DNA from: Xylophilus sp. GW821-FHT01B05
GTDB taxonomy: Bacteria > Pseudomonadota > Gammaproteobacteria > Burkholderiales > Burkholderiaceae_C
Direction of reading: 5' to 3'
Assembly: GCA_038961845.1 (NCBI GenBank)
Contig: CP152408.1
Span: 124,001 to 188,000, forward strand
Length of the DNA: 64,000 bases
Part shown: positions 14,450 through 31,750 of the stretch, one piece after another
Numbering within the stretch: position 1 is the first letter of the stretch
How the letters are laid out: each line of letters starts with the position of its first letter
The notes under the pieces: generated by a model
Told to the model about the DNA's origin: nothing
What the model saw: the letters and a program-made list of their open reading frames with translations, nothing else
The model's database searches: none
Position numbers and translations under genes: made by a program

Positions 14450-14984
14450 CACCGCGCCTGCCGGCACAGGTGGCCTGGCCCGCGCGGGCCACTTGCCGTC
14501 CCTTTCCCTTTCTGTCTGTGGCCTCGTCGGGGCATCGTGCCATGCCCCCCGCGCTGCGCCTCGGGTTCTTTCTTGGCCTGAGCGCGCCGCCCTGGCCAGA
14601 TCCCGCCATCAATAAGTGCTTGCGACAGTTCTCCCCAGCAAACGGATTGGCCGCTCCGGGAAAAGCGCCTTTCCTGGCCTCCGCTTAAATTTCTCTGAAC
14701 GTAATCGAGGTCACAAAGTAGCGACTTTGGCAACTAATTGTTGTCATTTCGCAGTGATTGTGCGTGGCGCTGTCTGCGCCGGGTGAGGCGGTTCCGACAG
14801 AACTGCAGCGCACCCGTTGCGAAAACCCGTTCATGAGCCAGCTCCCTCGCTTTCGTCGGTTGTAGCCAGTGGCGACGGCCCCTGCCTTTCAGCGGGGGCT
14901 TCGCAAGCTGCGCCTGTCTGGGTCATCCCGGCGGGCGACCTCGTCTTTTCGCCTTCCGCAAGCCCGCCAGGAGTGATTTTCACC
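14450..14984. other. Intergenic region between parA and the DUF11 gene
   Basis: 535 bp without a convincing gene. A GTGGCC/GGCCAC hairpin at about 14469-14492, with the palindrome TGGCCCGCGCGGGCCA inside it, may end the parA transcript, but lacks a T run. Around 14690-14760 the GC content drops and a TTGGCA-like -35 box occurs at 14727, without a good -10, so the promoter of the long downstream gene is probably here but is not resolved. Confidence 0.4.
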
Positions 14985-17900
14985 ATGCTGCAGCGCCTCT
15001 CGTCCCGTCTTCCGGCTGTCGCCGGTGCTTTGCGCACCGGCCTTGCGGCGGCCCTGTTGCTGCCCGGCATGGCGATGGCCACGGTCACCATCAACCACCA
15101 GTTCACACCGCAGGCCACCATTGCCCAAGGTGACGTGACGACCTATCGCATCACGATCGCGAACAGCTCAAACGTCCAGCTCACCAATGCCGCGGCTACC
15201 TCGCTGCTGGGTCCAGACATCACGATCGCCAGCCCCGGCGTGACCAGCACCACCTGTACCGGCGGAACCGTCACGGCGGTGGAGGGCTCCAGTACGGTGC
15301 AGTTGACCGGCGGCACCGTTCCGGCCCAGGTTGGCAATACAGCCGGCGAGTGCACCGTGGACGTTTCCGTGACCTCCACCGTGCCGGGCAACCACACCGT
15401 CACGATCCCGAAGGACACGGCACCAACACCCACCGTGGCGGGCTTCCAGGCCACAGAGAACGGCACCACGGTCTTCAACAGCACCGATGCCAACGTCACG
15501 CTGCTGGTCACGCTGCTGGCGCCACCCACCGGGAGCAAGAGCTACGCGCCCACGCCTGCCTATGTGGGCAAGCCGGTCACGCTGACGATCCAGCTGAGCA
15601 ACCCGGCCAGCAATACCGGCAAGACCATGCCGTTGACGAGCTTCACGGACAACCTGCCATCGGGGATGTTGGTGGCGCCGGTGCCGAACGCGTCGGCGGT
15701 GTGCGCGGGCAGCGGCTTTGCTGCCGGCACGCTGACGGCCACGGCGGGGGCCTCTTCCATCACGCTGGATGGCGGCACGATCGGCGTGGCTGGCACCTGC
15801 ACCATCACGGTCGACGTGGTGGTGAATTCCATCACAGGCACCAGCCAGACCTTCACCAACAGCCTTCCGGCCGGCGCCATCGGCAACAGCCGCGGCCTGA
15901 GCAGCCCCAGCTTTTCCCAGAACCTGGTGGTCAATGCGCCGGTCGCCCTCAACAAGTCGTTCAACCCCATCGTCATTCCGGTAGGCCAGCCCTCGGCCAT
16001 GACCATCGTGGTGACCAACAATGGCGCGACGGCACTGACCAACGCGGGATTCACCGACAGCTTCCCGGCAGGATTGAAGCTTGCCGCAGCGCCCAACGCC
16101 ACCGCGTCGTGTACCGGTGGCATCAACGGCACCGTGACCGCCACGGCCGGGGCCAGCAGCCTGCAGCTCTCCGGCGCGACCGTGCCGGCCGGCGGCACCT
16201 GCACGGTCACGGCCAACGTGACGGCGGATAGCGAAGGTGCGTACGCCAATGCCATTCCCGCCAATACGGTCACCAACGCCGAAGGCATTGGCAGCCCGGC
16301 GGCCAGCGCCACCCTGACGGCCTATGGCGAACTGCGTGTCTCCAAATCGGTGTCACCGACCAGCATCGGTCCTGGCCAGTGGGCGCAGTTCTCCATCACG
16401 GTGCAGAACTATTCCGGAGCGGCGGTGACCGGTGCCTCGCTGCGGGACGACTTGCCCCAGGTCCCAGGCAGCCAGATGGTGCTCGACTACTCCGCCGCCC
16501 CGAGCGGTTGCAGCTTCGCGTTCGGCAGCTCTTCTGCCTCGCAGAACCAGGACGGCGCGCCGTCGCTGGTGGGCACGGGAGGCACCATCCCTGCAGGCAC
16601 TGGCACCACGCCGGGCTCCTGTACCGTCACGTTCCGCGCCCGCGTACCGGAAAACACAGCAAAGGTGAATTTCATCAACAGCCTGCCTATCGGCGCTGTG
16701 GGCATCGGCCCGGGCATGCAGAACACCAACACAGCGAGCAGCACCGTGGCCATCGTGGATGCCGTGGTGCTTGGCAAGGCGTTCAACCCCAGCTCCATTG
16801 CGCAGGGCCAGACCTCGGTACTGACGCTGACCCTGGCCAACCGCTACGTGTCCGCGCTGGGCGTCAATTCCCTCACGGACAACCTGCCCGCCGGGGTGGT
16901 TCTGGCCGCCAACCCCGCCGCCACCAACACCTGCGGCGGCGCGCTGCAGGCCGCGCCCGGCGATAACAAGATCGTGCTGACCGGGGCCGCCGTGGCCGCC
17001 CGCCCGGACGCCGCGGTGGACAGCAGTTGCACGGTGACGGCCCGGGTCACGGGCAGCGCGCTGGGGACCTATACCAACACGATCACGCCGGCGCAGCTCG
17101 TGACCGCTTCTACCGCGCAGATCGCCGCCGACGTGAGCGCCAACCTGACGATCACCGCGGGCCTCAGTGCGACCAAGAGCTTCAACCCGACGTCTGCGGC
17201 GCAGGGCGGCCTCTCGCGAGCGACCGTGCGCGTCACCAACCAGACCAATGCACAGTTGACCGGCGTGTCGATCAACGACAGCGGCCTGGGCGGCGGCCTC
17301 TCGCTGGCCAACCCGGCCAATGCGGCCAGTTCCTGCGGTGGCGCCACGGTGCTGACGGCCAACCCGGGCAGCACAGGTGCGCGCCTTGATGGCGTGGTCC
17401 TGCCTGCGGGCGCGAGCTGCGACTTGTCGTTCGACGTGGTGGCCAACGGCGCAGGCCCCTGGACCAACACCATTCCCGTGAACCAGATCACCAGCGCGGA
17501 AGGGGCCTACAACAGCGTTGCGGTCACGGCCACCCTGGGCCAGCAGAGCGCCCAACTGGCGCTCAACAAGTCGTTCAACCCGGTGATCGTGACCGGCAAC
17601 CAGCCCTCGCTGCTGACCATCGACGTGGTCAATACCTCCTCCACGGCGATTGCGGGCACGTCCTTCACCGACGCGTTTCCGAAGGGGATCGTGGTGTATT
17701 CGGTGCCGGATGCGCAGACCACCTGCGTCGGCGGCACCGTGGCCGCTACGCCAGGCGGCGGCCTGGTTTCGCTGACAGGCGCCACGCTGGCGCCCAATGC
17801 CTCCTGCCAGGTCAAGGTCACGGTCACGTCCGTGGAATTCCTCAACCTGACCAACACCATTCCGGCCAGCGCTGTGAAGAGCCAGGGCGGCTACACGAAC

Positions 17901-20741
17901 GCCCAGCCTACGTCTGCCACGCTGTCCACGCTGGAAGGCTTGGGCGTGTCCAAGGGCTTCGAGCCGGCCTACATCACGCCGGGCCAGACCTCGCGCCTGA
18001 AGATCCGCCTGGCCAATACCTACAACCCCAATGTGAGCAGTGCGCTGACCGGGGTGAGCTTTACCGACGTACTGCCTGCGGGGCTGAACTTCGCCAACAA
18101 CCCCAACGCCACCACCACTTGCTCCAGCGGCACGATCACGGTGGCGGGGAATGCGCTGACCCTGTCGGGTGCAACGCTGGTGCCGAACGGCACTTGCGAG
18201 CTGTTGGCAGACGTCACCACCACCGTTCCCGGCTTCTACCTCAACCAGCTTGAGGCGGGCGCAGTGACCACCGACCAGAAGGTCACCAACCTGGTGCCGG
18301 CCGAGTCGACACTCAACGCCGTGACCGCGCCGACGATTGCCAAGCAGTTCGCGCCGACCACGGTGACCGTGGGCCAGTCGTCGCTGCTGACCGTGACCAT
18401 CACCAACCCTGCGTCGGTGGCGCTGACGGGCGTCTCGCTGACCGACAACCTGCCGCCCGGCCTGGCGGTGTTCAATCCCGCCAACACCAGCACAAGCTGT
18501 GTCGGCGGCGCGGTGACCGCCTTGCCTGGCAGCGCCAAGGTGACGCTCAACGGCGCCAGCGTGCCCGCCAATGGCAATTGCCAGTTCCGCGTAGCGGTGG
18601 TGGCCTCCGAGCCGGGCGTGCTGACCAATACCATTGCGGCGAACGCCATCCAGAGCAATGAAGGGCTCACCAACGGCAACCCGACCGATGCGCCGCTCAC
18701 CGTGCTGGCTCCGCCCACGGTCAGCAAGGCCTTCTCGCCTGCGCAGATCGCCGCCAATGGCACCAGCACGCTGCGCATCCGGCTGGAGAACAGCAATGCC
18801 GCAGCCATCACGCTGACGGCGGCGCTGGTCGACGCCCTGCCGGGCAATGTGCTGGTGGCCAGCCCGCCCAACATCAACGGGAGCGTGCCAGGCGGGGAAA
18901 CCGCTTGCACGGCGGCATCCATCACGGCCGTCGCCGAGGCGATCAACCTGGCCTATGCGAATGGCGCAGCGATCCCGCCGGGCGGTTGCACGATCACCGT
19001 GGACGTCACGTCGGCCATGAACGGCGCCTACCTGAACACCATTGCCGCAGGCCAGCTCAAGACCACCGCAGGCGACAACCCCGAGCCAGCCATCGCCACG
19101 CTGGGCGTCGGCCAGCCGGCTGCGCCGACGCTCGTGAAGTCGTTCAGCCCCACCACCATCGACGTCGGCGGCGCCTCGGTGCTGACCATCGTGCTGGGCA
19201 ACCCGAACGCGACCGCCGTGACGCTGACCAGCCCGCTGACAGACACGCTACCCGCCAACGTGCTGGTGGCGACGCCCGCCAACATCGGCGGCACCTGCAC
19301 CGTGGCCCAGGTCACGGCATCGGGCTCGGCCGTCACCTACGCCAGCGGTGCCACCATCCCGGCAAACGGCTGCAGCATCTCGGTCCGTGTGACCTCGGCC
19401 ACCGCGGGCTCCTACACCAACACGATCGCGGCCGGGGCCCTGGTGACGGATGCCGGCACCAATCCCACGCCAACCCAGGCCGCGCTGGTGGTCAAGGCTG
19501 CCACTGAGCCCTCGGTACTCAAGGCCTTTGCCCCGAGCACCATCAACCCCGGCAGCATCTCGCGCCTGACCATCACGCTGAGCAACGGCAACCCGGGCCC
19601 CGCGACCCTGACAGCGGCCCTGGTGGACACCTTGCCGGCCAACGTGCTGGTGGCGACGCCTGCCAACATCGGCGGCACCTGTACCGTGGCACAGGTCTCG
19701 GCAGCGGGCTCGGCCGTCACCTACGCCAGCGGCGCCACCATCCCGGCGAACGGTTGCACCATCCAGGTCGATGTCACCTCCAGCGTATCGGGCGGCCCGT
19801 ATGTCAACACCATCCCGGCCGGTGCCCTGCAGACCGACCTGGGCAACAACGGTGCACCCGCCGTGGCTGAGCTGCTGGTCAATCCTGGCCAGCCGCCCAG
19901 CGTCAGCAAGGCCTTCGTGCCGGCGTCCATTGCAGCCGGCGGTATCTCCACGCTGACGATTTCGCTGGGCAACGGCAACGCGGGTTCCGCGACCCTGACG
20001 GCGGCCCTGGTGGACAACCTGCCTGCGCCCGTGGTCGTGGCCCCGACGCCGATGCTGGTGGTGAGCGGCGGCTGCAGCGTGGCTGACGTGGTCGCCGTGG
20101 CGGGTGCAAGCTCGGTCACCGTCCGCTCGGGCACCATCATCCCCGCCGGCGGCTGCGCCATCTCGGTAAGGGTGACGGCCAGTACGGCCGGCACCTACAC
20201 CAACACCATTCCGGCGGGCAGCCTGCAAACTGACCTGGGCAACAACGCAACGCCTGCACAGGCCACGCTGACCGTACCCGGGGCTGGCGGTGTTGCGGCC
20301 CTGTCCGGCAACGTGTACCACGACCGCAATGACAACGGCGCCATCGACGCTGGCGAGGAAGGCATTGCTGGCGTGGAGCTGCGGCTGAGCCTGCTGACCG
20401 GCAACGGCCTGGTCGTGGTGGGCACGACGACGACGGACGCCAATGGCCACTACAGCTTCACCAACCTGGTGCCGGGCACCTATACCGTCACCGAAGTCCA
20501 GCCCGCTGGCTGGAACGATGGCAAGGACACAGCGGGCAGCAAGGGCGGCAGCACATCCGTGAACGACGTCATCAGCGGCATCGCGCTGGTGGCCGGTGAC
20601 AACGCGACGGACTACAACTTCGGCGAGCGGCGCCCCACGAACGTGGCAGGCATCCCGACGCTCAATCCCTGGGCCCTGCTGCTGCTTTCCCTGGCGCTGG
20701 GCTGGATGGCAGTGCGGACCCGCGGAGTCCGCCTGCGCTGA
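14985..20741 (+). CDS. Giant DUF11-repeat surface protein with IPTL-CTERM sorting signal
   Basis: 1918 residues. A signal peptide (MLQRLSSRLPAVAGALRTG..., cleaved near AMA) is followed by thirteen DUF11-like Ig-fold repeats of about 127-150 residues, beginning near nucleotides 15078, 15527, 15949, 16330, 16765, 17161, 17561, 17940, 18333, 18717, 19129, 19510 and 19900. Each starts with a KSFxPxxI-type strand and has DNLP, paired Cys and NTIPA motifs. A SdrD-B-like domain (20287-20630) has NVYHDRNDNGAIDAGEEG. The tail IPTLNPWAL, a hydrophobic helix and Arg-rich end is an IPTL-CTERM signal, processed in other bacteria by an exosortase (XrtH type). The ATG 14985 follows AGGAG; an upstream frame extension lacks a signal. 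Likely cell-surface or matrix adhesin; no exosortase gene is in the window. Confidence 0.9.
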   Translation: MLQRLSSRLPAVAGALRTGLAAALLLPGMAMATVTINHQFTPQATIAQGDVTTYRITIANSSNVQLTNAAATSLLGPDITIASPGVTSTTCTGGTVTAVEGSSTVQLTGGTVPAQVGNTAGECTVDVSVTSTVPGNHTVTIPKDTAPTPTVAGFQATENGTTVFNSTDANVTLLVTLLAPPTGSKSYAPTPAYVGKPVTLTIQLSNPASNTGKTMPLTSFTDNLPSGMLVAPVPNASAVCAGSGFAAGTLTATAGASSITLDGGTIGVAGTCTITVDVVVNSITGTSQTFTNSLPAGAIGNSRGLSSPSFSQNLVVNAPVALNKSFNPIVIPVGQPSAMTIVVTNNGATALTNAGFTDSFPAGLKLAAAPNATASCTGGINGTVTATAGASSLQLSGATVPAGGTCTVTANVTADSEGAYANAIPANTVTNAEGIGSPAASATLTAYGELRVSKSVSPTSIGPGQWAQFSITVQNYSGAAVTGASLRDDLPQVPGSQMVLDYSAAPSGCSFAFGSSSASQNQDGAPSLVGTGGTIPAGTGTTPGSCTVTFRARVPENTAKVNFINSLPIGAVGIGPGMQNTNTASSTVAIVDAVVLGKAFNPSSIAQGQTSVLTLTLANRYVSALGVNSLTDNLPAGVVLAANPAATNTCGGALQAAPGDNKIVLTGAAVAARPDAAVDSSCTVTARVTGSALGTYTNTITPAQLVTASTAQIAADVSANLTITAGLSATKSFNPTSAAQGGLSRATVRVTNQTNAQLTGVSINDSGLGGGLSLANPANAASSCGGATVLTANPGSTGARLDGVVLPAGASCDLSFDVVANGAGPWTNTIPVNQITSAEGAYNSVAVTATLGQQSAQLALNKSFNPVIVTGNQPSLLTIDVVNTSSTAIAGTSFTDAFPKGIVVYSVPDAQTTCVGGTVAATPGGGLVSLTGATLAPNASCQVKVTVTSVEFLNLTNTIPASAVKSQGGYTNAQPTSATLSTLEGLGVSKGFEPAYITPGQTSRLKIRLANTYNPNVSSALTGVSFTDVLPAGLNFANNPNATTTCSSGTITVAGNALTLSGATLVPNGTCELLADVTTTVPGFYLNQLEAGAVTTDQKVTNLVPAESTLNAVTAPTIAKQFAPTTVTVGQSSLLTVTITNPASVALTGVSLTDNLPPGLAVFNPANTSTSCVGGAVTALPGSAKVTLNGASVPANGNCQFRVAVVASEPGVLTNTIAANAIQSNEGLTNGNPTDAPLTVLAPPTVSKAFSPAQIAANGTSTLRIRLENSNAAAITLTAALVDALPGNVLVASPPNINGSVPGGETACTAASITAVAEAINLAYANGAAIPPGGCTITVDVTSAMNGAYLNTIAAGQLKTTAGDNPEPAIATLGVGQPAAPTLVKSFSPTTIDVGGASVLTIVLGNPNATAVTLTSPLTDTLPANVLVATPANIGGTCTVAQVTASGSAVTYASGATIPANGCSISVRVTSATAGSYTNTIAAGALVTDAGTNPTPTQAALVVKAATEPSVLKAFAPSTINPGSISRLTITLSNGNPGPATLTAALVDTLPANVLVATPANIGGTCTVAQVSAAGSAVTYASGATIPANGCTIQVDVTSSVSGGPYVNTIPAGALQTDLGNNGAPAVAELLVNPGQPPSVSKAFVPASIAAGGISTLTISLGNGNAGSATLTAALVDNLPAPVVVAPTPMLVVSGGCSVADVVAVAGASSVTVRSGTIIPAGGCAISVRVTASTAGTYTNTIPAGSLQTDLGNNATPAQATLTVPGAGGVAALSGNVYHDRNDNGAIDAGEEGIAGVELRLSLLTGNGLVVVGTTTTDANGHYSFTNLVPGTYTVTEVQPAGWNDGKDTAGSKGGSTSVNDVISGIALVAGDNATDYNFGERRPTNVAGIPTLNPWALLLLSLALGWMAVRTRGVRLR
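19254..19758 (+). repeat. Recent direct duplication inside the DUF11 gene
   Basis: Bases 19254-19374 and 19638-19758 are about 93 percent identical (eight differences counted by eye), offset by exactly 384 bp (128 codons). Other repeat pairs in the gene are much more divergent in DNA, so this pair reflects recent duplication or gene conversion and keeps the frame. Confidence 0.8.
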
Positions 20742-20924: not shown

Positions 20925-21470
20925 GTGAAACAAATCTCCATCCTCACCCTTCCCGGCTGGCAAGGCAGCGGCCCCGATCACTGGCAGAGCCGCTGGGAGG
21001 CGCTGCACGGCTACCAGCGCGTGGAGCAGCACGACTGGCAGCGCCCGCTGCGCGGCGACTGGAGCGCACGCCTGGAAGAAGTTCTGCTGGGCTGCAGCGG
21101 CCCGGTCGTGCTGGCCGCCCATAGCCTGGGCTGCCTGCTGGTGGCGGCCTGGGCCGCGCACTCGCGCAACACCGACCGCGTGCAGGGCGCGCTGCTGGTG
21201 GCCCCGCCCGACATCGAACGCGAAGACATCCGCCCGCTGCTGCCCGGCTGGGCGCCCGCCGTGCGCCAGCCGTTGCCCTTTGCCAGCGTGCTGGTGGCCA
21301 GCGAAAACGATCCCTACGGCAGCGCCGCATCGGCCCAGGCGCTTGCCCAGGCCTGGGGCTCCCGCTATGTGAGCGCTGGCTCCGTGGGCCACATCAATGC
21401 GGAATCCGGCCTGGGCGACTGGCCCGCGGGGCTGGCACTGCTGCAGGGCCTTGGCCGTCCGGCCGCATGA
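20925..21470 (+). CDS. RBBP9/YdeN-like serine hydrolase
   Basis: 181-residue small alpha/beta hydrolase. It starts KQISILTLPGWQGSGPDHWQ, close to the RBBP9/YdeN family start. A nucleophile serine is visible in AAHSLGC, an acid in ASENDPYGS, and a histidine in VGHINAESGLGDW, so the triad appears complete. Natural substrates of the family are poorly known. GTG 20925 was chosen because conservation begins there; an upstream ATG at 20892 would add unlike residues. It overlaps the cupin gene by 4 nt and probably belongs to the parB transcript. Confidence 0.85.
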   Translation: MKQISILTLPGWQGSGPDHWQSRWEALHGYQRVEQHDWQRPLRGDWSARLEEVLLGCSGPVVLAAHSLGCLLVAAWAAHSRNTDRVQGALLVAPPDIEREDIRPLLPGWAPAVRQPLPFASVLVASENDPYGSAASAQALAQAWGSRYVSAGSVGHINAESGLGDWPAGLALLQGLGRPAA

Positions 21471-21772
21471 CCATGTCACACACCAATCTGCTGGCGCTTG
21501 CGCAAGCCAACCCCCAGGCCTGGACATCGCGCATCTGCGGCCAGGCCGCGGGCGCCAACCTCAAGGTGCTGCGCATGGACGCAGCGGCCTACCCCGACGA
21601 ATCCCACGACTTTGACGAGGCCCTGCTGGTGCTCGACGGCTGCATGAACCTGGATATCCACGGCGAAGTCGTGGCGGTCCGATCGGGCGAAGTCTTCATC
21701 GTGCCTGCCGGGGTGCCGCACGCGGTGGCGCCCGGCAGCCACGGCACCCTCGTCATCATCGATCAGTCATAA
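21467..21772 (+). CDS. Small cupin-domain protein
   Basis: 101-residue single-cupin protein. The barrel is visible from HDFDEALLVLDGCMNLDI to GEVFIVPAGVPHAVAPGSHG, with a metal-type histidine in the second cupin motif. Only one or two ligands are seen, so it may be a sensor or small-molecule binder rather than an enzyme. Starts with an ATGA overlap from the hydrolase gene, 12 nt before parB. Confidence 0.82.
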   Translation: MTMSHTNLLALAQANPQAWTSRICGQAAGANLKVLRMDAAAYPDESHDFDEALLVLDGCMNLDIHGEVVAVRSGEVFIVPAGVPHAVAPGSHGTLVIIDQS

Positions 21773-22744: not shown

Positions 22745-22803
22745 TTCATAGTCAAATATGCCTCTAGCCCAGGCACCACCTGGGCTGTTAGCTATCAATT
22801 TGA
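22745..22803 (-). repeat. Dispersed repeat, copy 2
   Basis: Reverse-orientation copy of the element at 9511-9569: on the minus strand GATAGCTAACAGCCCAGG then CCTGGGCTAGAGGC. The GCCCAGG/CCTGGGC hairpin could end transcription from either side. The last six or so codons and stop of the membrane gene to the right lie inside it. Confidence 0.7.
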
Positions 22804-23732
22804 TATGGCTTTGCGGCCCGCTCCAGTGCCGCAGCGGCCACGAAGCCGCACAGCACGGCAAACCACAGCGTGGCCACGCGGATGCCCACCGCTGCCAAGG
22901 CGGCCAACCCCAAGGGCACGGCGTGCAGCGCCAGCAGGGCGACGATGGTGGCCTCGGTGGTGCCGATGCCCGCCGGCAGCATGGACGCAGCCCCCGCCAG
23001 CATGGCTGTGGGGTAGATGGCGGCGGCATCGCGCCATGGCAGCGCAATGCCCAGGCCGTCCAGTAGCCACGCGAAGGACAGGGCGACGACGCCCCAGGCC
23101 GCCAGCCCCAGTCCCAGCGACGCCAGCAGGTCCGCAGGGCGCAGCCAGGCCCTGCAACCCGCCAGTCCGAGCGCGAGCGTTCGCCCTGCGCGCGCCAGGC
23201 GCGGCCATCCCTGGCGGCGCAGCCAGGCAGCGCTGCGCAACAGCCAACCGGGCCGCGCTGCGGTCAGCGCCACCATGCCGGTCATTCCCGCCACGAAGGC
23301 CAGCAGCAGGGCAAACAGCGGCCGCGCCGGAATGGCCAGCGCCGCCAGCAGCACGACCGACAGCAGATCGAACGCGCGCTCGTAGATGAAGGCCGAGATG
23401 GTGCGCGCCGCCGGCACACCAAGGCGCGCAAAGTAGCGCACGCGCACCAGTTCGCCCACCTTGCCGGGCGTGGCGGTGAAGGCAAAGCCCGCGAGATAGC
23501 AGAGAAAGCCCGTGCCCCAGGGCGTGCGGTACCCGGCGCGGCCCAGCAGCCAGCGCCAGCGCGTGTAGCGCAGCACATAAGAGGCAAAGGCCAGCGTGAG
23601 CATGGCCGGCATCCAGGCGAGCACCTGCGGCAGCTGCTGGAAGACCTGGTTGCGCGCGTCGGCCCAGACCAGCGCGGCCACGTAGGCCGCGGTGCAGGCC
23701 CCGGCCGCAGCGACGGCGTGGGCCGGCTTCAT
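22788..23732 (-). CDS. Lysylphosphatidylglycerol synthase-TM-like membrane protein (UPF0104)
   Basis: 314-residue integral membrane protein with about eight hydrophobic segments, of the LPG_synthase_TM family (AglD/MprF membrane domain, without a catalytic domain). Conserved features include FAFTATPGKVGELVR and SMLPAGIGTTEATIV. Family members are thought to move polyprenyl- or phospholipid-linked groups across the membrane. Last gene of the eight-gene operon, overlapping gtrA by 4 nt. The final residues (PYQIDS) are encoded by the dispersed repeat, so the natural C-terminus has probably been replaced. Confidence 0.82.
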   Translation of the reverse strand: MKPAHAVAAAGACTAAYVAALVWADARNQVFQQLPQVLAWMPAMLTLAFASYVLRYTRWRWLLGRAGYRTPWGTGFLCYLAGFAFTATPGKVGELVRVRYFARLGVPAARTISAFIYERAFDLLSVVLLAALAIPARPLFALLLAFVAGMTGMVALTAARPGWLLRSAAWLRRQGWPRLARAGRTLALGLAGCRAWLRPADLLASLGLGLAAWGVVALSFAWLLDGLGIALPWRDAAAIYPTAMLAGAASMLPAGIGTTEATIVALLALHAVPLGLAALAAVGIRVATLWFAVLCGFVAAAALERAAKPYQIDS

Positions 23733-24139
23733 GGCCGGTCGGCGAAGGACCAGCGCTTGTGGCCCAGATAGCTGGTGAACACCGGCACCGCCACGCCCAC
23801 GGCATGGGCGATCTCGGGCACGAGATGCGTCACGCCCAGGGCCGGCAGCACCAGGCGCGCCAGCAGCATGCTCACGGCCCAGGTCTGCACCACGGCGACG
23901 AGGTTGACCAGCACGAAGAAGCCGGCGGATTTATGCGCCGACTGCTGGCTGCTCTTGAACACGAAGGCGCGCGCCAGCACAAAGGCCGTGACCATGCCCA
24001 CGCCGTAGGCCAGCACCACGGCATACGAGAACGGCATCCACTGGTTGAGCACGATGCGCGCGATGAAATTGGCGAGCGCGGCCACGCCGCCTGTGACCAG
24101 GAAGGCCACGAACTGCCGGGAGCGGAACTGCGCAAGCAT
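23729..24139 (-). CDS. GtrA-family membrane protein (putative polyprenyl-P-sugar flippase)
   Basis: 136-residue protein with four hydrophobic helices; RQFVAFLVTGGVAALANFI is the GtrA start and FTSYLGHKRWSF the conserved tail. GtrA proteins flip undecaprenyl- or decaprenyl-phosphate sugars to the periplasmic side. In actinobacteria a GtrA-like protein accompanies the DprE genes, so its presence here supports a lipid-linked pentose pathway. Confidence 0.88.
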   Translation of the reverse strand: MLAQFRSRQFVAFLVTGGVAALANFIARIVLNQWMPFSYAVVLAYGVGMVTAFVLARAFVFKSSQQSAHKSAGFFVLVNLVAVVQTWAVSMLLARLVLPALGVTHLVPEIAHAVGVAVPVFTSYLGHKRWSFADRP

Positions 24140-24146
24140 GGCGCGC

Positions 24147-25472
24147 CTACGACCGCGCCGCGGCGGCCTGCCGGGCCATCTGGCGGCCGAAGCCGATGCT
24201 CTCGGAAATGCCCCGGTCCTCGGGGTAGTAATACGAGGTGTCGGCTACCCACAGGCCCTGCACGGGCAACTGCACGGGCGGCAGGCTGTCCAGGTAGTTG
24301 GGCGGGCAGATGGGCTGGGCGTAGCGGTAGCGGCTGGCGCGCAGGGCCAGAAAGTCGCTGTCCTGCAGTTGCGGGTTGATGGTCTTCAGGTAGCTGCGCA
24401 CCTTGTCGAGGAAGGCGGAATCGGGCTCGGCGAACTTCGGGTGCTCGCCCGGCATGTAGAAGGGCACGTAGACCACCGACTGCTCCAGCGGGCGCAGGTT
24501 GCTGTATTCGACCAGGCCCGGGATGTCCATGTCCGGGTCGTTCACGTTGAGCCAGAAGTTGCCGGTGACGGGCCGGCGCAGCTTGGCGATCACGCAGACC
24601 ACGGCGATGTTCTTCAGCGCGCCGTACTGCGCCAGCAGCGCGGGCGGCAGGTCGGGCATGGTGCGCGGCACATAGGGCAGGGGAATGGTGCTCACCACCT
24701 TGTCGAAGGCCTCGAACCCCTGCGCGGTCTCCACCCCTTGCACGCGCGCTTCGTCCATGCGCACGCGCGTGACGGGGGTAGACAGGCGGATCTCGCCGCC
24801 GTGCTGGCGGATGTCGGCGGCCATGCCGTCGAGCAGCGTGGCCGAGCCGCCCTCCAGGTGGCCCAGCTTTTCGCGCATGAGGCTGTAGCGCGAGCGGCCG
24901 ATGCGGCGGATGCGGCTCCAGATCCACGCGGCCGAGAGGTTGCTGGAATAGTCGTAGAACTTGTAGTCGAACAGGCGGCGCCAGAGCACCTCGTAGGCCT
25001 CCTTGCCCACCCAGCGGCGGATCCAGCCCGTGGCCTCTTCGCCATCCAGTGGCTGCCAGTTGGTGCGCTTGGTCGACAGGAAGGCGTGCAGGCCGTAGCG
25101 GAACTTGGCGACCAGGCCCAACCCTTGAAAGCGCAGCAGTGCCATCGGGTTGCCCCAGGGCTGCAGGCGCTTCTGGAACCAGTAGCCCATGCGCGTCTCG
25201 CGCCAGCGCATCTGCCCCGCCAGGCCCAGCTCGTCCAGCACCTGGAGAAAGGCATGGTCGGAGGTGCAATGGAAGTGGTAATAGCGCTCGATGGGCAGGC
25301 CATCAAAGTCGAACATCGCGGTCATGCCGCCCACGCGATCGTCGGCCTCGAAGACCACGGGCCGGTGGCCGTCGCGGGCCAACTGGTAGGCCACGGCCAG
25401 GCCCATCGGGCCGGCGCCGAGCACGGCGATGCGCTGGCCCGGCATGGCGGGGGAGCTTGCGGGTGCGCTCAT
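24147..25472 (-). CDS. FAD-dependent oxidoreductase of the amine-oxidase/UDP-galactopyranose-mutase-like fold
   Basis: 441-residue flavoprotein. The FAD-binding start is IAVLGAGPMGLAVAYQLARDG (motif GxGxxG) followed by VVFEADDRVGGM; the C-terminal segment GLWVADTSYYYPEDRGISES closes the FAD site. Similar proteins occur in polysaccharide clusters, acting on sugars or carotenoid-like substrates. Role inside this operon is unknown; it overlaps the epimerase stop. No signal peptide. Confidence 0.82.
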   Translation of the reverse strand: MSAPASSPAMPGQRIAVLGAGPMGLAVAYQLARDGHRPVVFEADDRVGGMTAMFDFDGLPIERYYHFHCTSDHAFLQVLDELGLAGQMRWRETRMGYWFQKRLQPWGNPMALLRFQGLGLVAKFRYGLHAFLSTKRTNWQPLDGEEATGWIRRWVGKEAYEVLWRRLFDYKFYDYSSNLSAAWIWSRIRRIGRSRYSLMREKLGHLEGGSATLLDGMAADIRQHGGEIRLSTPVTRVRMDEARVQGVETAQGFEAFDKVVSTIPLPYVPRTMPDLPPALLAQYGALKNIAVVCVIAKLRRPVTGNFWLNVNDPDMDIPGLVEYSNLRPLEQSVVYVPFYMPGEHPKFAEPDSAFLDKVRSYLKTINPQLQDSDFLALRASRYRYAQPICPPNYLDSLPPVQLPVQGLWVADTSYYYPEDRGISESIGFGRQMARQAAAARS

Positions 25473-26410
25473 CAGAACTCCAGCACCACGCGGCTGTACT
25501 CCGGGTGGTTGAAGGTTTCGTGGATGGCCTCGGCGAAGGGCGTGGCGCGCACGCCAAAGATGCCGGGCCAGTCGATCACCTCGAACTCGTCATGCGCCAC
25601 CAGCGCCTTGAGCTGGTCGGCGGTGAAGGGCGGGTCTTTGTCGAACAGCGCCCACAGTTTGAGCAGCAGGTAGAAGAGGCCGTAGGGAATCTTCACGATC
25701 CACGCGCCTGCGCCCGTGGCGGACTTGATCTGGCGAATGATGTCGATGTAATCCACCTTCTCCAGGCCCGTGATGTTGAACACGCCGCCCACGCGGCGCT
25801 CCTTGATGCAGCGCACGATGATGCGGCTGAAGTCCGCCGCATAGAGCGGCTGGCGCATGTAGCGGCCATTGCCGGGAATGGGGAACACCGGCACCTTGCG
25901 CATGAAGCGCGACAGCCAGCCCAGGTGCTTGCGGTCGAACCAGCCGAACATCAGTGTGGGCCGCAGCACGACGCAGGGGATGCCGCTGGCGAGCACCATC
26001 TCTTCCTGCCTGCGCTTGGTGTCGGTGTAATGGTCCTTGGCGACCGACTCGACCACGGAGGAGCTGATGTGCACGGTGTAGGGCACCTGGTGGCGCTGGA
26101 TCAGCGCGAGGATGCGCTCGGTGGAGGTGAGGTTGTTGCGCACGAAGGGCTCGGCCTGCGGCGCGCCGATCTGCGCCTGCAGCATCACCACCGCGTCGGC
26201 GCCCTCGAAGTGGCGCTCCCAGTCGCCGGGCTCGGCGAGGTCGGCGTATTCGGCCGTGATGTCCGGGTGCATCTGCCGCAGGATGGCCAGGTTCGCGGCG
26301 TGCTTGTCGAGCACCACGAGGTTGCGGTAGCCCTGCAGCTTGAAGTGCGCGACGAGGTTCTGGCCCACGAGGCCGGCGCCTCCTGGCAGGATGATCCTGG
26401 AGTTCTTCAT
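25472..26410 (-). CDS. NAD-dependent epimerase/dehydratase family protein
   Basis: 312-residue extended SDR. NAD-binding start RIILPGGAGLVGQNLVAH, and the YxxxK pair is visible in HYTDTKRRQEEMV after the HISSSVV strand. The C-terminal half has FPIPGNGRYMRQPLYAADFSR, typical of sugar-nucleotide epimerases. Substrate cannot be told; modification of the sugar or its lipid carrier is likely from context. Its stop overlaps the following start, and the membrane gene before it is 25 nt away. Confidence 0.85.
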   Translation of the reverse strand: MKNSRIILPGGAGLVGQNLVAHFKLQGYRNLVVLDKHAANLAILRQMHPDITAEYADLAEPGDWERHFEGADAVVMLQAQIGAPQAEPFVRNNLTSTERILALIQRHQVPYTVHISSSVVESVAKDHYTDTKRRQEEMVLASGIPCVVLRPTLMFGWFDRKHLGWLSRFMRKVPVFPIPGNGRYMRQPLYAADFSRIIVRCIKERRVGGVFNITGLEKVDYIDIIRQIKSATGAGAWIVKIPYGLFYLLLKLWALFDKDPPFTADQLKALVAHDEFEVIDWPGIFGVRATPFAEAIHETFNHPEYSRVVLEF

Positions 26411-26435
26411 GGAGTGTTCAGAAGGTGTGTAGGCA

Positions 26436-28139
26436 TCACTGGGTCGCCGATACGGAAACGGGGACCGAGCAGGCCGTCCCGGGCGCGATGAGCGTTACGG
26501 TCGTGGACATTGCCTCGGAGCGCAGGTAGGCCGTGAAAGTCAGCTTGTGCGCCGGTGCCTGGTCCTTGTCTGTGGCGGCGACCTTTCGCCAGCGATCCGG
26601 AATTCCGTATCCCACGATGGTCCCGTCGGGCGCAGCCAGACGCACCGATGGTGGCTCGGTTTGCGAATCGGGGAACAGGGTCCCTGAAACGGCCACGAAC
26701 CGAGGGTCCTCGGGCAGCGTGCGTACTGCATCGATCGATCCGGCGCATCGGGCCGGCAAGGGTTCGGCGTGCGAGCCCAGGGCGCCAACGGCATCCACCA
26801 GCATGGGCTGGCCAAATACTCCTGCGCCATCCCGCAGTCCCTTGTCCACCAGGTTTTTTGCGTAGTTGAAGTCCCACACCAGCATGCCGACGCGCTGGCC
26901 GTCCTTCACGCCCAGTGTCAGCGCGAGCGCGCCAGTCAGGCGCAGGTGCCCGATGTTGTTGCGCTTCAAGTCGGATGCCTGGACGGCAAGCATGGCCGCC
27001 AGCAGCCCAATGAGCACTGCCGCTGCCACGGCCTTCCCACGCGAGCGCAAAGCCAGAAGCTGAGGTGTGTACAGCACGCCCAGTGCAGCCCAGGCCATGA
27101 GCGTGGGTGTGGTGTATCTGCTTGCCAGGGCGGTGCCCATTCCAAGGGGCAGGCGCCCCCCGCTCGTGGCGAATGCGATGCCAGCGATGTAGATGATGAA
27201 GGCAAGCAACGAGAGGTCCAGCGCATGGGAGCGAGGGGCCCTCAGCGCCGGCACCAGCTTGACCAGGAACAGCGCCACGAACAGCACTCCGAAGCACTGG
27301 CCGATCCACAAATGCGCATACAGCTGCTGCGTGAAGAACTGAAATGGCCCGCCCAGGTACTGCAGCGTGTACTGCACCATGCCCAATGGCTGCTGCCGCA
27401 GCGTGTCGAGCATGCGGGGATGGCCGGGCGGGGTGGCATAGCCCTGCATATAGACGGTGACGCAAACAGCCGCCAGCACAGCCAGCATGGCCACGCGGCG
27501 CCAGCCCATGCGCATCACGGCGGCGTAGAGCACCATCATCGGCAGCGCCATGACGCCGTTGATCATGGTGCCCACGCTCAGAACCCCTAGTGCACAGGCG
27601 GCAGCAAACCAGCGACCGATACCGTCCTCGCTGGTTGCGCGAAACAGGCAGTACAGCCCAAGCAGCGGCAGCAGTTGGGAAAGGAAGAACTGGCTCTGGA
27701 AGGGCCACGACAGGTTCTCCTTCTGCACCCAGGACAACAGCCAGATACAAAGGCAGGCCGTCGCACCAAGGAGTTGTGCCCGGGAAAGGGGCTCCGCACG
27801 CGCCTTCAGAAAAGCCCAGAACGCGGCAACGTTGCACAGCGCGAGCAGGTAGTTCACCACGAGCAGGAAGGCGAACTTGCCACCGAACCAGACGTAGTCC
27901 ATCCAGAACAATGCCCGGGAGAGCACGATGCGGTGTTCATTGCTCTGCTGCCACCAGGCAGACCAACCGGCCCCCTCGTGCAAAGCGGTGTAGAAATCGA
28001 GCGATCCCCACATGTCCCATACGGGAACGGAGGTGTGGGCGCGCCACCCGGCCACTGCGCCCAGCAGCACAAAGAGAGCCGCCAGACCGATCAGGCCATG
28101 GGTGACAAGGGAGCGGGGAGGCGTTGCCATTCGTTGCAT
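26436..28139 (-). CDS. Multi-pass membrane protein, candidate lipid-linked sugar glycosyltransferase (GT-C like)
   Basis: 567 residues (or 564 from ATG 28130). A first helix is followed by an acidic loop with VPVWDMWGSLDFY, where DxW-type acids sit just after TM1 as in GT-C enzymes that use polyprenyl-P sugars. About ten more hydrophobic segments follow, and the last 150 residues form a soluble, presumably periplasmic, domain. No named family is recognised. Its place between the DprE-like genes and the flippases suggests it transfers the pentose to a surface acceptor. Assignment is inference. Confidence 0.6.
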   Translation of the reverse strand: MQRMATPPRSLVTHGLIGLAALFVLLGAVAGWRAHTSVPVWDMWGSLDFYTALHEGAGWSAWWQQSNEHRIVLSRALFWMDYVWFGGKFAFLLVVNYLLALCNVAAFWAFLKARAEPLSRAQLLGATACLCIWLLSWVQKENLSWPFQSQFFLSQLLPLLGLYCLFRATSEDGIGRWFAAACALGVLSVGTMINGVMALPMMVLYAAVMRMGWRRVAMLAVLAAVCVTVYMQGYATPPGHPRMLDTLRQQPLGMVQYTLQYLGGPFQFFTQQLYAHLWIGQCFGVLFVALFLVKLVPALRAPRSHALDLSLLAFIIYIAGIAFATSGGRLPLGMGTALASRYTTPTLMAWAALGVLYTPQLLALRSRGKAVAAAVLIGLLAAMLAVQASDLKRNNIGHLRLTGALALTLGVKDGQRVGMLVWDFNYAKNLVDKGLRDGAGVFGQPMLVDAVGALGSHAEPLPARCAGSIDAVRTLPEDPRFVAVSGTLFPDSQTEPPSVRLAAPDGTIVGYGIPDRWRKVAATDKDQAPAHKLTFTAYLRSEAMSTTVTLIAPGTACSVPVSVSATQ

Positions 28140-28142
28140 CGC

Positions 28143-28910
28143 TCAGATATCCATCTTGTGAAAAACCACGCGCGGCAGGTTGCGGATCACCGCCATGATC
28201 AATGCCCATTTCGCGGGCGCATACACCACCGGCGTGCCGCGCGCCATGCCGCGCACCACGGCCTGGGCAACCTGCTCCACGCTGGCCAGCTTGGCGCCGC
28301 GTGCCTTCAGGTGCGCCGTCATGGGCGTGTCCGTGGGGCCGGGCTTGACCAGTACCACCTGCACGCCCGTGCCCGCGAGCCGGTGCTGCAGGCCTTCGGC
28401 GTAGCGCTCCACCAGCCCCTTGGCGGCACCGTAGACATAGTTGGATTTGCGCCCTCGGTCGCCGGCCACGGAGCCGATGATGCCGATCGTGCCGCGCCCG
28501 AGCGGCTGCATCAGGCCCGCGAAGGCTTCGGCGCACAGCGCAGGCGACAGGCCGTTGACGGCCATGGCCTCTTCGGCGCTGGCCAGGTCGGTCTGGCACT
28601 GCGGCTGGTCGGGCAGGCTGCCGTGGGCGATCAGCACCACGTCGGGCACGCCTTGTGCGGCCAGGCGCTGCACCAGTGCGGCGATGGAAGCGGCCTGCGT
28701 GACGTCGCCGGCCAGCACCTCGACGCGGGCCTGGGGCTGGCGCACCTGCAGGTCGTCGGCCACGCCCTGCAGCCGGGCCGCGTCGCGGCCCACGAGCACC
28801 ATGCGGCCAATGCCGCCAACGGCCAGCCATTGCCGCGCGCAGTGCTGCGCTATCAGCGAGGTGGCGCCCACGATGACGACCGTCTTGGATTGGTTGAGTG
28901 TGTCTTGCAT
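28143..28910 (-). CDS. SDR reductase, DprE2-like (polyprenylphospho-2-keto-pentose reductase)
   Basis: 255-residue short-chain dehydrogenase. NAD(P) motif VVIVGATSLIAQHCARQW (the TSxIA variant is typical for DprE2), catalytic YGAAK in SNYVYGAAKGLVERY, and a conserved tail. DprE2 reduces the 2-keto intermediate made by DprE1 to decaprenylphosphoryl-arabinose. It lies 21 nt after the DprE1-like gene, the same order as in mycobacteria. The exact sugar and lipid length here are inference. Confidence 0.85.
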   Translation of the reverse strand: MQDTLNQSKTVVIVGATSLIAQHCARQWLAVGGIGRMVLVGRDAARLQGVADDLQVRQPQARVEVLAGDVTQAASIAALVQRLAAQGVPDVVLIAHGSLPDQPQCQTDLASAEEAMAVNGLSPALCAEAFAGLMQPLGRGTIGIIGSVAGDRGRKSNYVYGAAKGLVERYAEGLQHRLAGTGVQVVLVKPGPTDTPMTAHLKARGAKLASVEQVAQAVVRGMARGTPVVYAPAKWALIMAVIRNLPRVVFHKMDI

Positions 28911-28931
28911 TCTGGTTGGATTCGCGGGATG

Positions 28932-30245
28932 TCAGTCGCCCATCAGGCGCAGCGACATGGCTGAGCGGATGTTCGGGTCGCGGTAGGGAAGGAACTGCGC
29001 CAGGCGCGGGTAGCCGGCCTCGAACAGCGCGCGCGGCATGCGGGCGTCCTTGGCGGGGTACAGGCGCCCGCCGGCTTCGGCCACCACGGCATCGAGCTGC
29101 TCGAACAGCCGCAGCGTGCGCTCGCCCAGGTTGGGAAAGTCCAGCGCCAGCGTGACGCCCGGTTGCGGAAAGCTCAGCAGGCCCACGGACTCGCGGTTGC
29201 CGAAGGTCTTGAGCACGCCGAGGAAAGAGCCCTGGCCCGAGGCGGTGATCTGGTGCAGCAGCGCAGCCACCGCGTCCGGGCCATGCGGGCGCGGCACCAC
29301 GCACTGGTACTGGTAGAAGCCGCGGCGGCCATAGATGCGGTTCCACTCCTGCAGGTTGTCCAGCGGGTAGGAAAAGGGTTCGTAGTGCTGCAGCGCGCGC
29401 CCGGCGCGGCGCCGGTTCAGGTGGTAGTAGGCCGCGTTGAAGGGGCGCAGGCTCAGGCGGTTGACCAGCGACACCGGTGGCGCGAACGGCACGGTACGCT
29501 GGTGATCGCGGGGCGGCTGCGCGCCGGGCGGGGCATCGGGGGCCGCGTTGGCACGCAGAAAGATGCCACGCGTGCGGCCTGGGTCGCCGCCCGAGAGGCA
29601 GTCGATCCATGAGACCGTGTGTTCCCACCCGGCCTCGGAGGCATCGGCCAGCGCGAAGAATTCGTTCAGCGATCCGTAGGGAAGGGTCTCCGTGTCCAGC
29701 CAGGCGCTGGGCACGGGCCGCAGCCGCAATGTGGCCTGCGTGACCACGCCCGTCAGGCCCAGGCCGCCCACGGTGGCGGCGAACCAATCCGGGTGTAGCT
29801 GCGGGCCGCAGCGGATCAGGGTCCCGTCGGTGCGCAGCAGCCGCAGCTCTTGCACATGGTCGCCAAAGGAGCCGTGCACGTGGTGGTTCTTGCCGTGCAC
29901 GTCGTTGGCGATGGCGCCGCCCACGGTAGCCAGTTGGGTGCCGGGCGTCACGGGCAGCATCCAGCCGCGCGGCGCAAAGCTGCGCTGGATGTCGCGCAGC
30001 AGCATGCCGCCTTCGCAGGTCAGCTCGCCGGTAGCCTCGTCCCAGGCAATGAAGCGGTCCAGGCCGCGCATGGACCACAGCGCGCCGCCGGGGTTCAGGC
30101 ACACGTCGCCGTAGCTGCGTCCCATGCCGAAGGCCAGGCCGTGCTGGCCCGGATCGCGCGGCAGGTGCGTCAGCGGCCTTTCCGAGAGGACGCGCAGGTC
30201 GTGGTCCTCGGCCGAAAGCCGGCCCCAGGAGCGCACGGCTACCAC
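28932..30245 (-). CDS. FAD-linked oxidase, DprE1-like (polyprenylphosphoryl-ribose 2-oxidase)
   Basis: 437-residue FAD oxidoreductase of the VAO type. FAD-binding segments GRSYGDVCLN and VGGAIANDVHGKNHH match the DprE1 family closely, as does GSFGDHVQELRLL. The catalytic Lys is visible in LYPAKDAR (Lys399). At the position I align with mycobacterial Cys387 (NICVDFP, target of benzothiazinones) this protein has Ala367 (LALDFP). It should oxidise the 2-hydroxyl of a polyprenylphosphoryl ribose. Overlaps the UbiA-HAD gene end by 7 nt. Confidence 0.87.
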   Translation of the reverse strand: MVAVRSWGRLSAEDHDLRVLSERPLTHLPRDPGQHGLAFGMGRSYGDVCLNPGGALWSMRGLDRFIAWDEATGELTCEGGMLLRDIQRSFAPRGWMLPVTPGTQLATVGGAIANDVHGKNHHVHGSFGDHVQELRLLRTDGTLIRCGPQLHPDWFAATVGGLGLTGVVTQATLRLRPVPSAWLDTETLPYGSLNEFFALADASEAGWEHTVSWIDCLSGGDPGRTRGIFLRANAAPDAPPGAQPPRDHQRTVPFAPPVSLVNRLSLRPFNAAYYHLNRRRAGRALQHYEPFSYPLDNLQEWNRIYGRRGFYQYQCVVPRPHGPDAVAALLHQITASGQGSFLGVLKTFGNRESVGLLSFPQPGVTLALDFPNLGERTLRLFEQLDAVVAEAGGRLYPAKDARMPRALFEAGYPRLAQFLPYRDPNIRSAMSLRLMGD

Positions 30246-31750
30246 GGGTATCCCACGCTTGCCGCGACCAGGGTCAGGCCGAAGAGCAGGCCCGTTGCGA
30301 GGCTGGCCTTGTCCTTGAAGGCAAATACCAGCGGGTCGTCATGCATCTCTCCGCGCACCGTACGCAGCCACATCCAGCTGACCCAGAACACCATGAGGGG
30401 AACGGTGGCCCAGATCAGCTCGGGCGTGCTGTACATCACCAGCACGGCTTCGCTGTTGAGGTACAGCGCCAGCACCACGACGGCCGTGTAGCCCGCCGTG
30501 ATGCCCAGGTTCTGCACGATGGGCGCGTCCGACGTGAGGTAGCCACGCCCGTGGGCCTGCGTCTTGCCGGCAGCCTGCTGCACCATCAGCTCGGCATAGC
30601 GCTTGACGAAGGCCAGCGACAGGAAGAGAAAGCCCGAGAACGCCAGCAGCCAGAACGACATGGGCAGTGCGATGGCGGCCGCTCCGGCGACGATGCGCAG
30701 CGTGTAGAGCACCGCCAGCGCAATGCAATCCACCAGCACCAAGCGCTTGAGCGCCAGCGAATAGGCCCAGGTGATCGTGAAATACACCAGCAGCCACGCG
30801 AAGAAACCCGCGCCCACCTGCCAGGCCAATGCAAGGCTGGCCACCGTGAGCACCGGGACCACAGCCACGCCCTGCCACGCTGCGAGCGCACCCGAGGCAA
30901 AGGGGCGCCGGCGCTTGCGCGGGTGCCGCCGGTCGCTTTCCAGGTCGAGCAGGTCGTTGGCCACATAAACCGACGAGGCGCACAGGCTGAACGCCAGGAA
31001 CGCCACCAGCAGATCGCCCCAGGCTGCCCCGTCCGCAATGCGGTGCGCGGCCAGCAGCGGCACGAACAACAACAGGTTCTTGAGCCACTGGTGCAGGCGC
31101 AGTGCCTTGCGCCAGGGCGTGAGTCCGGCCGGCGCGCGCGCGAAGCGGTCGGCCACGTTGCCCAGGGACTCGGCGCGGCGGGTGACGGCGTCCGAGGCGT
31201 TGACCACAATGGCCGAGCGCGCGGCCTGCCACACCGCCACATCCGCCTGCGAATTGCCGGCGTAGTCGAAGCCGCGCTCGCCGAACGCCTGCACCAGCGC
31301 GGCCGCCTTGGCTGACCCGGCGAGGTTGGTACTGCCGTCGCTGGCCATTACCTGGTCGAAGCACCCGAGGTGGCGTGCGATGGCGTCTGCAACCGTGCGG
31401 TCCGAGGCCGTGCACAACACGATCTGCCGCCCGCCCGCGTGCTGCGCGCGCAGCCACTGCAGGAAGGGCTCGTTGTAAGGCAGTGTGGCGGCGTCCATCT
31501 GCACGCGCTGCCCGATCTCTTGCTTGAGCACGGCCTTGCCCCGGGAGAGCCACAGCGGCATGGCCAGCACACGCCACGGCGCATCCCGCAGCAGCTGCAG
31601 CGACGACTCGTGCAGCATGTCCGTCAGGATGAGCGTGCCGTCCAGATCAACCACCAGGGGGAGCGCTGGCAACGGATCGTGGGCAGAAAGCGGCGGACCG
31701 GACGGTGAGAGCAAAAGAGGCCTTTTTGAAACGGAAAGACGCAGCGACAC
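30239..31750 (-). CDS. HAD phosphatase-UbiA prenyltransferase fusion
   Basis: 503 residues in two domains. Residues 30-220 are a HAD phosphatase (VVDLDGTLI nucleophile, VLCTASDR, GYAGNSQADVAV-like third motif). Residues 225-503 are a UbiA membrane transferase with NDLLDLESDRRHPRKRRRP, the Asp-rich site for a polyprenyl phosphate, and eight or so helices. The architecture fits transfer of phosphoribose from PRPP to a polyprenyl phosphate, then removal of the 5-phosphate; in mycobacteria these are separate proteins (UbiA Rv3806c and PAP2 phosphatase). GTG start. First gene of the operon. Confidence 0.87.
   Translation of the reverse strand: MSLRLSVSKRPLLLSPSGPPLSAHDPLPALPLVVDLDGTLILTDMLHESSLQLLRDAPWRVLAMPLWLSRGKAVLKQEIGQRVQMDAATLPYNEPFLQWLRAQHAGGRQIVLCTASDRTVADAIARHLGCFDQVMASDGSTNLAGSAKAAALVQAFGERGFDYAGNSQADVAVWQAARSAIVVNASDAVTRRAESLGNVADRFARAPAGLTPWRKALRLHQWLKNLLLFVPLLAAHRIADGAAWGDLLVAFLAFSLCASSVYVANDLLDLESDRRHPRKRRRPFASGALAAWQGVAVVPVLTVASLALAWQVGAGFFAWLLVYFTITWAYSLALKRLVLVDCIALAVLYTLRIVAGAAAIALPMSFWLLAFSGFLFLSLAFVKRYAELMVQQAAGKTQAHGRGYLTSDAPIVQNLGITAGYTAVVVLALYLNSEAVLVMYSTPELIWATVPLMVFWVSWMWLRTVRGEMHDDPLVFAFKDKASLATGLLFGLTLVAASVGYPW

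Follow-up and report, generated by a model that had tools for sequence, protein, structure and literature searches.

Gene content of the operon

An eight-gene operon lies at positions 22788-31750 of a 64,000-nucleotide stretch of Xylophilus sp. GW821-FHT01B05 (contig CP152408.1, positions 124,001 to 188,000), which we refer to as the window. As a sequence-only reading of this DNA had described, its genes are adjacent, tightly packed and on the minus strand; all eight open reading frames (ORFs) are intact, and neighbours either overlap slightly or are separated by no more than 25 bp. They are transcribed in the order A-B-C-D-E-F-G-H (Table 1), with overlaps of 7 bp (A/B), 1 bp (E/F) and 4 bp (G/H) and gaps of 21 bp (B-C), 3 bp (C-D), 25 bp (D-E) and 7 bp (F-G). 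The operon most likely belongs to the polyprenyl-phosphate pentofuranose glycosylation systems, as a variant that has two oxidase/reductase pairs instead of one; we infer the sugar, its flipping and its acceptor.

Table 1. Genes of the operon in transcription order (FAD, flavin adenine dinucleotide; SDR, short-chain dehydrogenase/reductase; GT-C, glycosyltransferase of the C fold; PPO, protoporphyrinogen oxidase)
Gene	Product	Coordinates	Strand	Support
A	HAD phosphatase-UbiA fusion; predicted polyprenyl-phosphate phosphoribosyltransferase and 5'-phosphatase	30239..31750	-	PF12710, PF01040, NF006088
B	DprE1-like FAD oxidase	28932..30245	-	FAD_binding_4, PDB 4aut
C	DprE2-like SDR reductase	28143..28910	-	SDR, PDB 21gq_C
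D	GT-C fold membrane glycosyltransferase; C-terminal beta-rich, possibly carbohydrate-binding domain	26436..28139	-	predicted model
E	extended SDR (epimerase/reductase), partner of F	25472..26410	-	PF01370 67 bits
F	FAD-dependent oxidoreductase, NF005560 (PRK07233), phytoene-desaturase/PPO-like fold	24147..25472	-	
G	GtrA-type small membrane protein; predicted lipid-linked-sugar flippase	23729..24139	-	PF04138 55 bits; E-F association in related loci
H	LPG_synthase_TM / flippase-like membrane protein	22788..23732	-	PF03706 127.7 bits

Core enzymes

A joins HAD and UbiA domains in one protein, as first proposed. The fusion is not peculiar to this DNA, since NF006088, which A matches with 680 bits (NCBIfam cut-off, 351), is an NCBI equivalog family with a member characterised biochemically in 2024. 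Among solved structures A matches DPPRS (PDB 8j8j, E 6.5e-30). An alignment of nine fusions keeps the HAD motif VDLDGTL and the UbiA residues N265-D266-xx-D269-xxx-D273, R384 and E387 invariant, and the latter are spaced like the ORF15 residues tested in PMC11127046. A's GTG start is uncertain; the NF006088 match runs from residue 28 on. From its motifs, A appears to have what that paper takes as the mark of its systems, namely the NDxxDxxxD motif in a UbiA-type phosphoribosyltransferase (PPPRS), alongside a HAD domain predicted to act as the phosphoribose phosphatase.

B aligns over residues 22-422 with DprE1 (PDB 4aut, E 1.4e-70) and C with DprE2 (PDB 21gq_C, E 2.6e-26). B carries HGKNHH and YPAKD and C carries YxxxK, which we take to be the catalytic motifs of DprE1/DprE2-type enzymes. 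Judged by sequence, B and C are thus homologues, over most of their length, of solved DprE1 and DprE2 with the catalytic motifs kept. B's best NCBIfam model is DprE1 (NF053785, 330.7 bits; equivalog cut-off, 500); C reaches 156.7 bits with DprE2 (NF053786; cut-off, 250) and 245 bits with NF005489 (cut-off, 267).

In the alignment, residue 367 of B is alanine where mycobacterial DprE1 has its benzothiazinone-bound cysteine (C387). A pattern check of 73 DprE1-like ORFs gave alanine at this position in 64 and threonine in one, with eight not matching the pattern. These proteins should be without the covalent target of benzothiazinones.

Neither Pfam nor NCBIfam gives a match for D at E 0.001. The model predicted for it, however, resembles GT-C enzymes, which bears out its first description as GT-C-like and makes it the likely transferase; a GT-C gene in the cluster is a further mark of the systems in PMC11127046, whose transferase is assigned to family GT136.

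The E-F module

E and F are predicted to form a second oxidase/reductase pair. In E, GxAGLVG and Y128xxxK132 are invariant among 15 sequences. F scores 568.7 bits with NF005560 (cut-off, 252), a model named only as a hypothetical protein, and is an amine-oxidase-type flavoprotein whose predicted fold is closest to phytoene desaturase and protoporphyrinogen oxidase. UDP-galactopyranose mutase (UGM) is of the same fold class, and F could be conceived as a similar flavin mutase that turns a lipid-linked furanose into a pyranose, with a separate role for E. We regard this as very unlikely: both other enzymes outrank UGM, no UGM Pfam family matches F at E 0.001, and the constant presence of E beside F orthologues would be left unexplained.

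F orthologues occur in 8 of 299 genomes of the phylum by protein comparison (E 1e-40), and the NF005560 family in 9 of 398. Seven of these nine carry A-B-C-E-F-G (the window, L037, L143, L144, L145, L146 and L204); in L142 the contig ends just upstream of E, with E-F-G visible, and L147 has a member 32% identical to F outside any such cluster. E, at 59% identity or more, is found in exactly the 8 of 398 genomes with F orthologues (the next match is at 30%), which rules out E and F as chance neighbours. On plasmids, seven of eight F matches fall within A-B-C-E-F-G, with Rhizobium tumorigenes counted twice; the eighth, from Embleya, is 29.6% identical.

We also compared two sets of loci centred on A. 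The first holds 80 loci kept from at least 571 confirmed relatives in named genomes, 63 of them with enough flank. The second holds 40 class-wide loci drawn regardless of E-F from 55 matches (G000, G301, G114 and 12 others were left out): 5 with E-F, 19 with DprE1/E2 and no E-F, 3 with B and no C, and 13 with neither. The sets share at least one contig (L106 and L165, an A-only locus). E-F is present in 15 of the 63 and 5 of the 40 loci, always with B.

These counts bear on the simplest alternative, that the product is ordinary polyprenyl-phosphate-D-arabinofuranose and that the targets of E and F are different ones, such as the acceptor glycan or a nucleotide sugar. DprE1/E2 without E-F in 32 of 63 and 19 of 40 loci would fit, as A-B-C then seems enough, and the known DprE1/E2 product is arabinofuranose. 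However, E-F orthologues were not found without A-B-C in the 398 genomes, save at the contig-end locus, and their linkage holds although the membrane protein at the GT-C position varies among clusters; we consider this alternative unlikely.

Alternatively, E alone might invert C3, as Citrobacter ORF13 does, with F saturating or desaturating the polyprenyl chain instead of editing the sugar. ORF13, a single SDR, sets xylo- instead of ribofuranose according to PMC11127046 and, like E, has YxxxK and a glycine motif. For F, both the fold and the profile point most closely to phytoene desaturase, an enzyme acting on an isoprenoid. Yet prenyl editing should serve DprE-only clusters too, and those 32 and 19 loci by definition lack the module. 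Moreover, F orthologues never occur without E, and the candidate epimerase adjoining A in L167, an ORF13 stand-in by position with no function assigned, is only 23% identical to E. This combination is distinctly improbable in our view, and we prefer joint action of E and F on the lipid-linked sugar.

Two NF005560 members outside such clusters, both over the cut-off, have suggestive neighbours. In L152 a gene for a family 2 glycosyltransferase (GT2) directly precedes F, and in L147 GT2, LPG_synthase_TM and F genes stand in a row. Both GT2 proteins resemble polyprenyl-phosphate sugar synthases (PgfS, 277 and 218 bits; ArnC, 176 and 129 bits) and perhaps offer another route to polyprenyl-phosphate sugars. 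These cases, only two in number, suggest that the F family works on polyprenyl-phosphate sugars in general. NF005560 members over the cut-off also occur in the control genomes of Haloferax volcanii and Methanosarcina acetivorans, whose neighbourhoods could show the family's older role.

E-F looks like an exchangeable cassette, given identity spread, tree conflict and one rearrangement. Across the 136 pairs among 17 E-F clusters, B has a median identity of 50%, compared with 66% for E and 71% for F, and identities correlate modestly (0.41 for B-E, 0.30 for B-F). The E tree places the window and L054 together with clusters of the Burkholderia group and with L103 from Chlorobiaceae (support 0.91), whereas the B tree divides the window and L054 from them by a split supported at 1.00. 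In L174 the order is A-E-F-G-B-C.

In L067 (order A-B-C-E-D-F-G), F groups with L078 and B and E with L081 and L093, so that F seems to have been swapped on its own. An A-B-C cluster in L161 holds a 126-aa ORF (6507-6887) resembling E (98 bits), with no F match, perhaps a decayed E-F module. In L188 (6213-10479) the genes after an A-type gene encode a GMC-family flavin oxidoreductase and an extended SDR, and DprE1/E2 are not matched there; this is perhaps another, non-homologous oxidase/SDR pair beside a polyprenyl-phosphate ribose synthase. L046 (G056:C1:1254092-1257188) has tandem A-type copies, the first of which matched as two pieces in different frames and looks broken.

Association with flippase candidates

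Counting same-strand genes within 9.5 kb of A, we found GtrA in 13 of 15 E-F loci of the first set versus 1 of 32 DprE-only loci (Fisher p 1e-8, uncorrected for kinship), or in 15 of 15 E-F loci if L056 and L063, where G lies just beyond 9.5 kb, are included. H was distributed the other way (2 of 15 versus 13 of 32; Fisher 0.09), as was c10, another GtrA-like family (0 of 15 versus 9 of 32; Fisher 0.04), both values again ignoring kinship; none of the three was present in 2 of 15 versus 9 of 32. Because the loci are related, the Fisher values are not clean probabilities. The second set gave 4 of 5 versus 0 of 19 for GtrA, 0 of 5 versus 6 of 19 for H and 0 of 5 versus 5 of 19 for c10. Clusters with A alone often carry c9, a 120-aa membrane protein whose match to EamA falls short of the threshold (6 of 16 in the first set, 5 of 13 in the second). 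No MATE family matches any of the eight operon proteins at E 0.001; GtrA and LPG_synthase_TM proteins are present instead.

Since E-F clusters carry GtrA and DprE-only clusters mostly other flippase candidates, E and F probably turn the pentose on the lipid into a different sugar, one that has an exporter of its own. The earlier suggestion that the additional epimerase and FAD enzyme could diversify the sugar thus gains support from both their co-inheritance and their tie to GtrA.

Distribution and probable acquisition

The gene order A-B-C recurs in alpha-, beta- and gammaproteobacteria, Corallococcus (L083) and the Chlorobiaceae genome of L103, among others, so the cluster is more than chance. 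Of the 150 genomes of the window's family, 20 have an NF006088 match over the cut-off, and so do 45 of the 369 of its class; D is found in 4 of the 150, and each count includes the window. This patchiness rules out a cluster typical of the family.

The operon sits between parB and a methyltransferase gene. Two genomes of the same genus have no A over the NF006088 cut-off, and their parB and methyltransferase matches lie 25 and 28 bp apart with nothing between and conserved neighbours. The operon's G+C content is like that of its flanks, with no clear break in base composition, and there is no tRNA at its boundary or anywhere else in the window. A-type genes on phages were limited to one partial match (46% of the query at 31.6% identity). 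The empty site alone would fit either gain here or loss there; the patchy spread favours gain.

Nearby, a small cupin gene (window 21467-21772) lies between a serine hydrolase gene and parB. The two genomes of the same genus have the hydrolase gene directly beside parB, and no cupin gene was found in the 7-kb stretches compared. Three genes from the operon (14817-20741), a 1974-aa protein with 12 DUF7933 and 2 DUF11 stretches, an SdrD-B domain and a C-terminal IPTL-CTERM motif is a conceivable surface acceptor, with nothing to link the two. No pilin was found among the eight flanking window genes scanned.

Proposed pathway

We propose that A, as fused transferase and phosphatase, would convert phosphoribosyl pyrophosphate (PRPP) into a polyprenyl-phosphate pentose, and that B and C would invert C2 to give polyprenyl-phosphate-D-arabinofuranose. 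F and E would next alter this lipid-linked pentose by a second redox step, in the simplest case a further epimerisation by oxidation and reduction; G, perhaps with H, would flip the lipid-linked sugar, and D would transfer it to a surface acceptor, for which pilin, LPS and glycolipid are candidates. The domain make-up, motifs, predicted folds, co-inheritance and empty site were computed here; the chemistry of A-type fusions and of DprE1/E2 and the three-component logic come from the literature. We infer the E-F chemistry, its place in the order of steps, the flipping and the acceptor.

Much of the pathway first read from the sequence stands by homology and context, namely polyprenyl-phosphate pentose synthesis, DprE1/E2-like epimerisation, flippase candidates and a GT-C transferase. 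Its end point probably does not: because E-F is co-inherited and tied to GtrA, we expect a final sugar other than plain D-arabinose, and the surface sugar may be one so far undescribed. That the second inversion gives D-lyxofuranose is possible but doubtful.

Several points weigh against this pathway. B and C fall below the curated equivalog cut-offs and are homologues, not equivalogs, which leaves their substrate and carbon unproven. F's closest folds act on isoprenoid and porphyrin, not on sugars, and both GT2 proteins beside F-type genes score under the PgfS (500) and ArnC (529) cut-offs. The 20-kb stretch of L180 holds E-F but lacks GtrA, and L104 has GtrA without E-F. The window itself has both G and H and so breaks a one-flippase rule, as do L055, L081, L144 and L041 (G on the other strand), while L170 combines A-B-C with c9; a single flippase type for each sugar is no more than a tendency. 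Some contigs of the second set are short, so absences there carry less weight. Finally, flipping, transfer and the sugar are putative, resting on homology and gene context. Taken as a whole, a horizontally gained operon for extracytoplasmic glycosylation is the best explanation, with a probability of about 0.68.

Comparison with known systems

The core of the operon is already known. In Citrobacter, the HAD-UbiA fusion ORF15 makes farnesyl-phosphate-ribofuranose (in vitro assay and nuclear magnetic resonance (NMR), 2024), and the SDR ORF13 decides xylo- over ribofuranose (gene deletion and NMR); DprE1/E2 homologues are placed in candidate systems of arabinofuranose-containing glycans (PMC11127046). 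That paper rules out the fusion or the DprE pair as new for Gram-negatives. The three-component systems of Citrobacter youngae O1/O2 described there share with the window operon a fusion leading to polyprenyl-phosphate-ribofuranose, an auxiliary epimerase gene and a GT-C transferase. They rely on a flippase of the MATE family and a single SDR epimerase, ORF13, for xylofuranose, whereas the window operon has GtrA and LPG_synthase_TM proteins, DprE1/E2-like enzymes and the further E-F pair.

The parallel first drawn with the mycobacterial decaprenyl-phosphate-arabinose pathway (Rv3806c, Rv3807c, DprE1, DprE2 and the exporter Rv3789) holds for the UbiA-type phosphoribosyltransferase, the DprE1/DprE2 homologues, a small exporter and GT-C transferases, there arabinosyltransferases. 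It fails for the phosphatase, which is fused here and of the HAD type, unrelated to Rv3807c according to PMC11127046; the window also has E-F, and its B has no cysteine where benzothiazinones bind. Pseudomonas paraeruginosa PA7/Pa5196 likewise has Gram-negative D-arabinofuranose biosynthesis genes, used for pilin glycosylation, and TfpW is a GT-C arabinosyltransferase by the title of a reference (both from PMC12369383). Its PPPRS has no fused phosphatase domain, according to PMC11127046.

The operon looks like one of the 'more elaborate systems' of Xanthomonas and a Bacillus, with multiple candidate epimerases or GT-Cs, to which PMC11127046 gives no function. One sentence of that paper is all that we found on an E-F-type pair, in a literature search that did not extend to subscription papers and supplements. 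The Xanthomonas systems are probably of the same kind as ours; Xanthomonas albilineans (L081) has the order H-A-B-C-E-F-G. As a system, the window operon would not be of a new kind. PMC11127046 did not settle why several candidate epimerases are present in some pentofuranose clusters, and the coupling of E to F, the tie to GtrA and the characterised model for the first steps make this question testable. The operon could bring bacterial glycan chemistry a sugar not yet known from it, and it offers a rule for guessing the type of pentofuranose from gene content.

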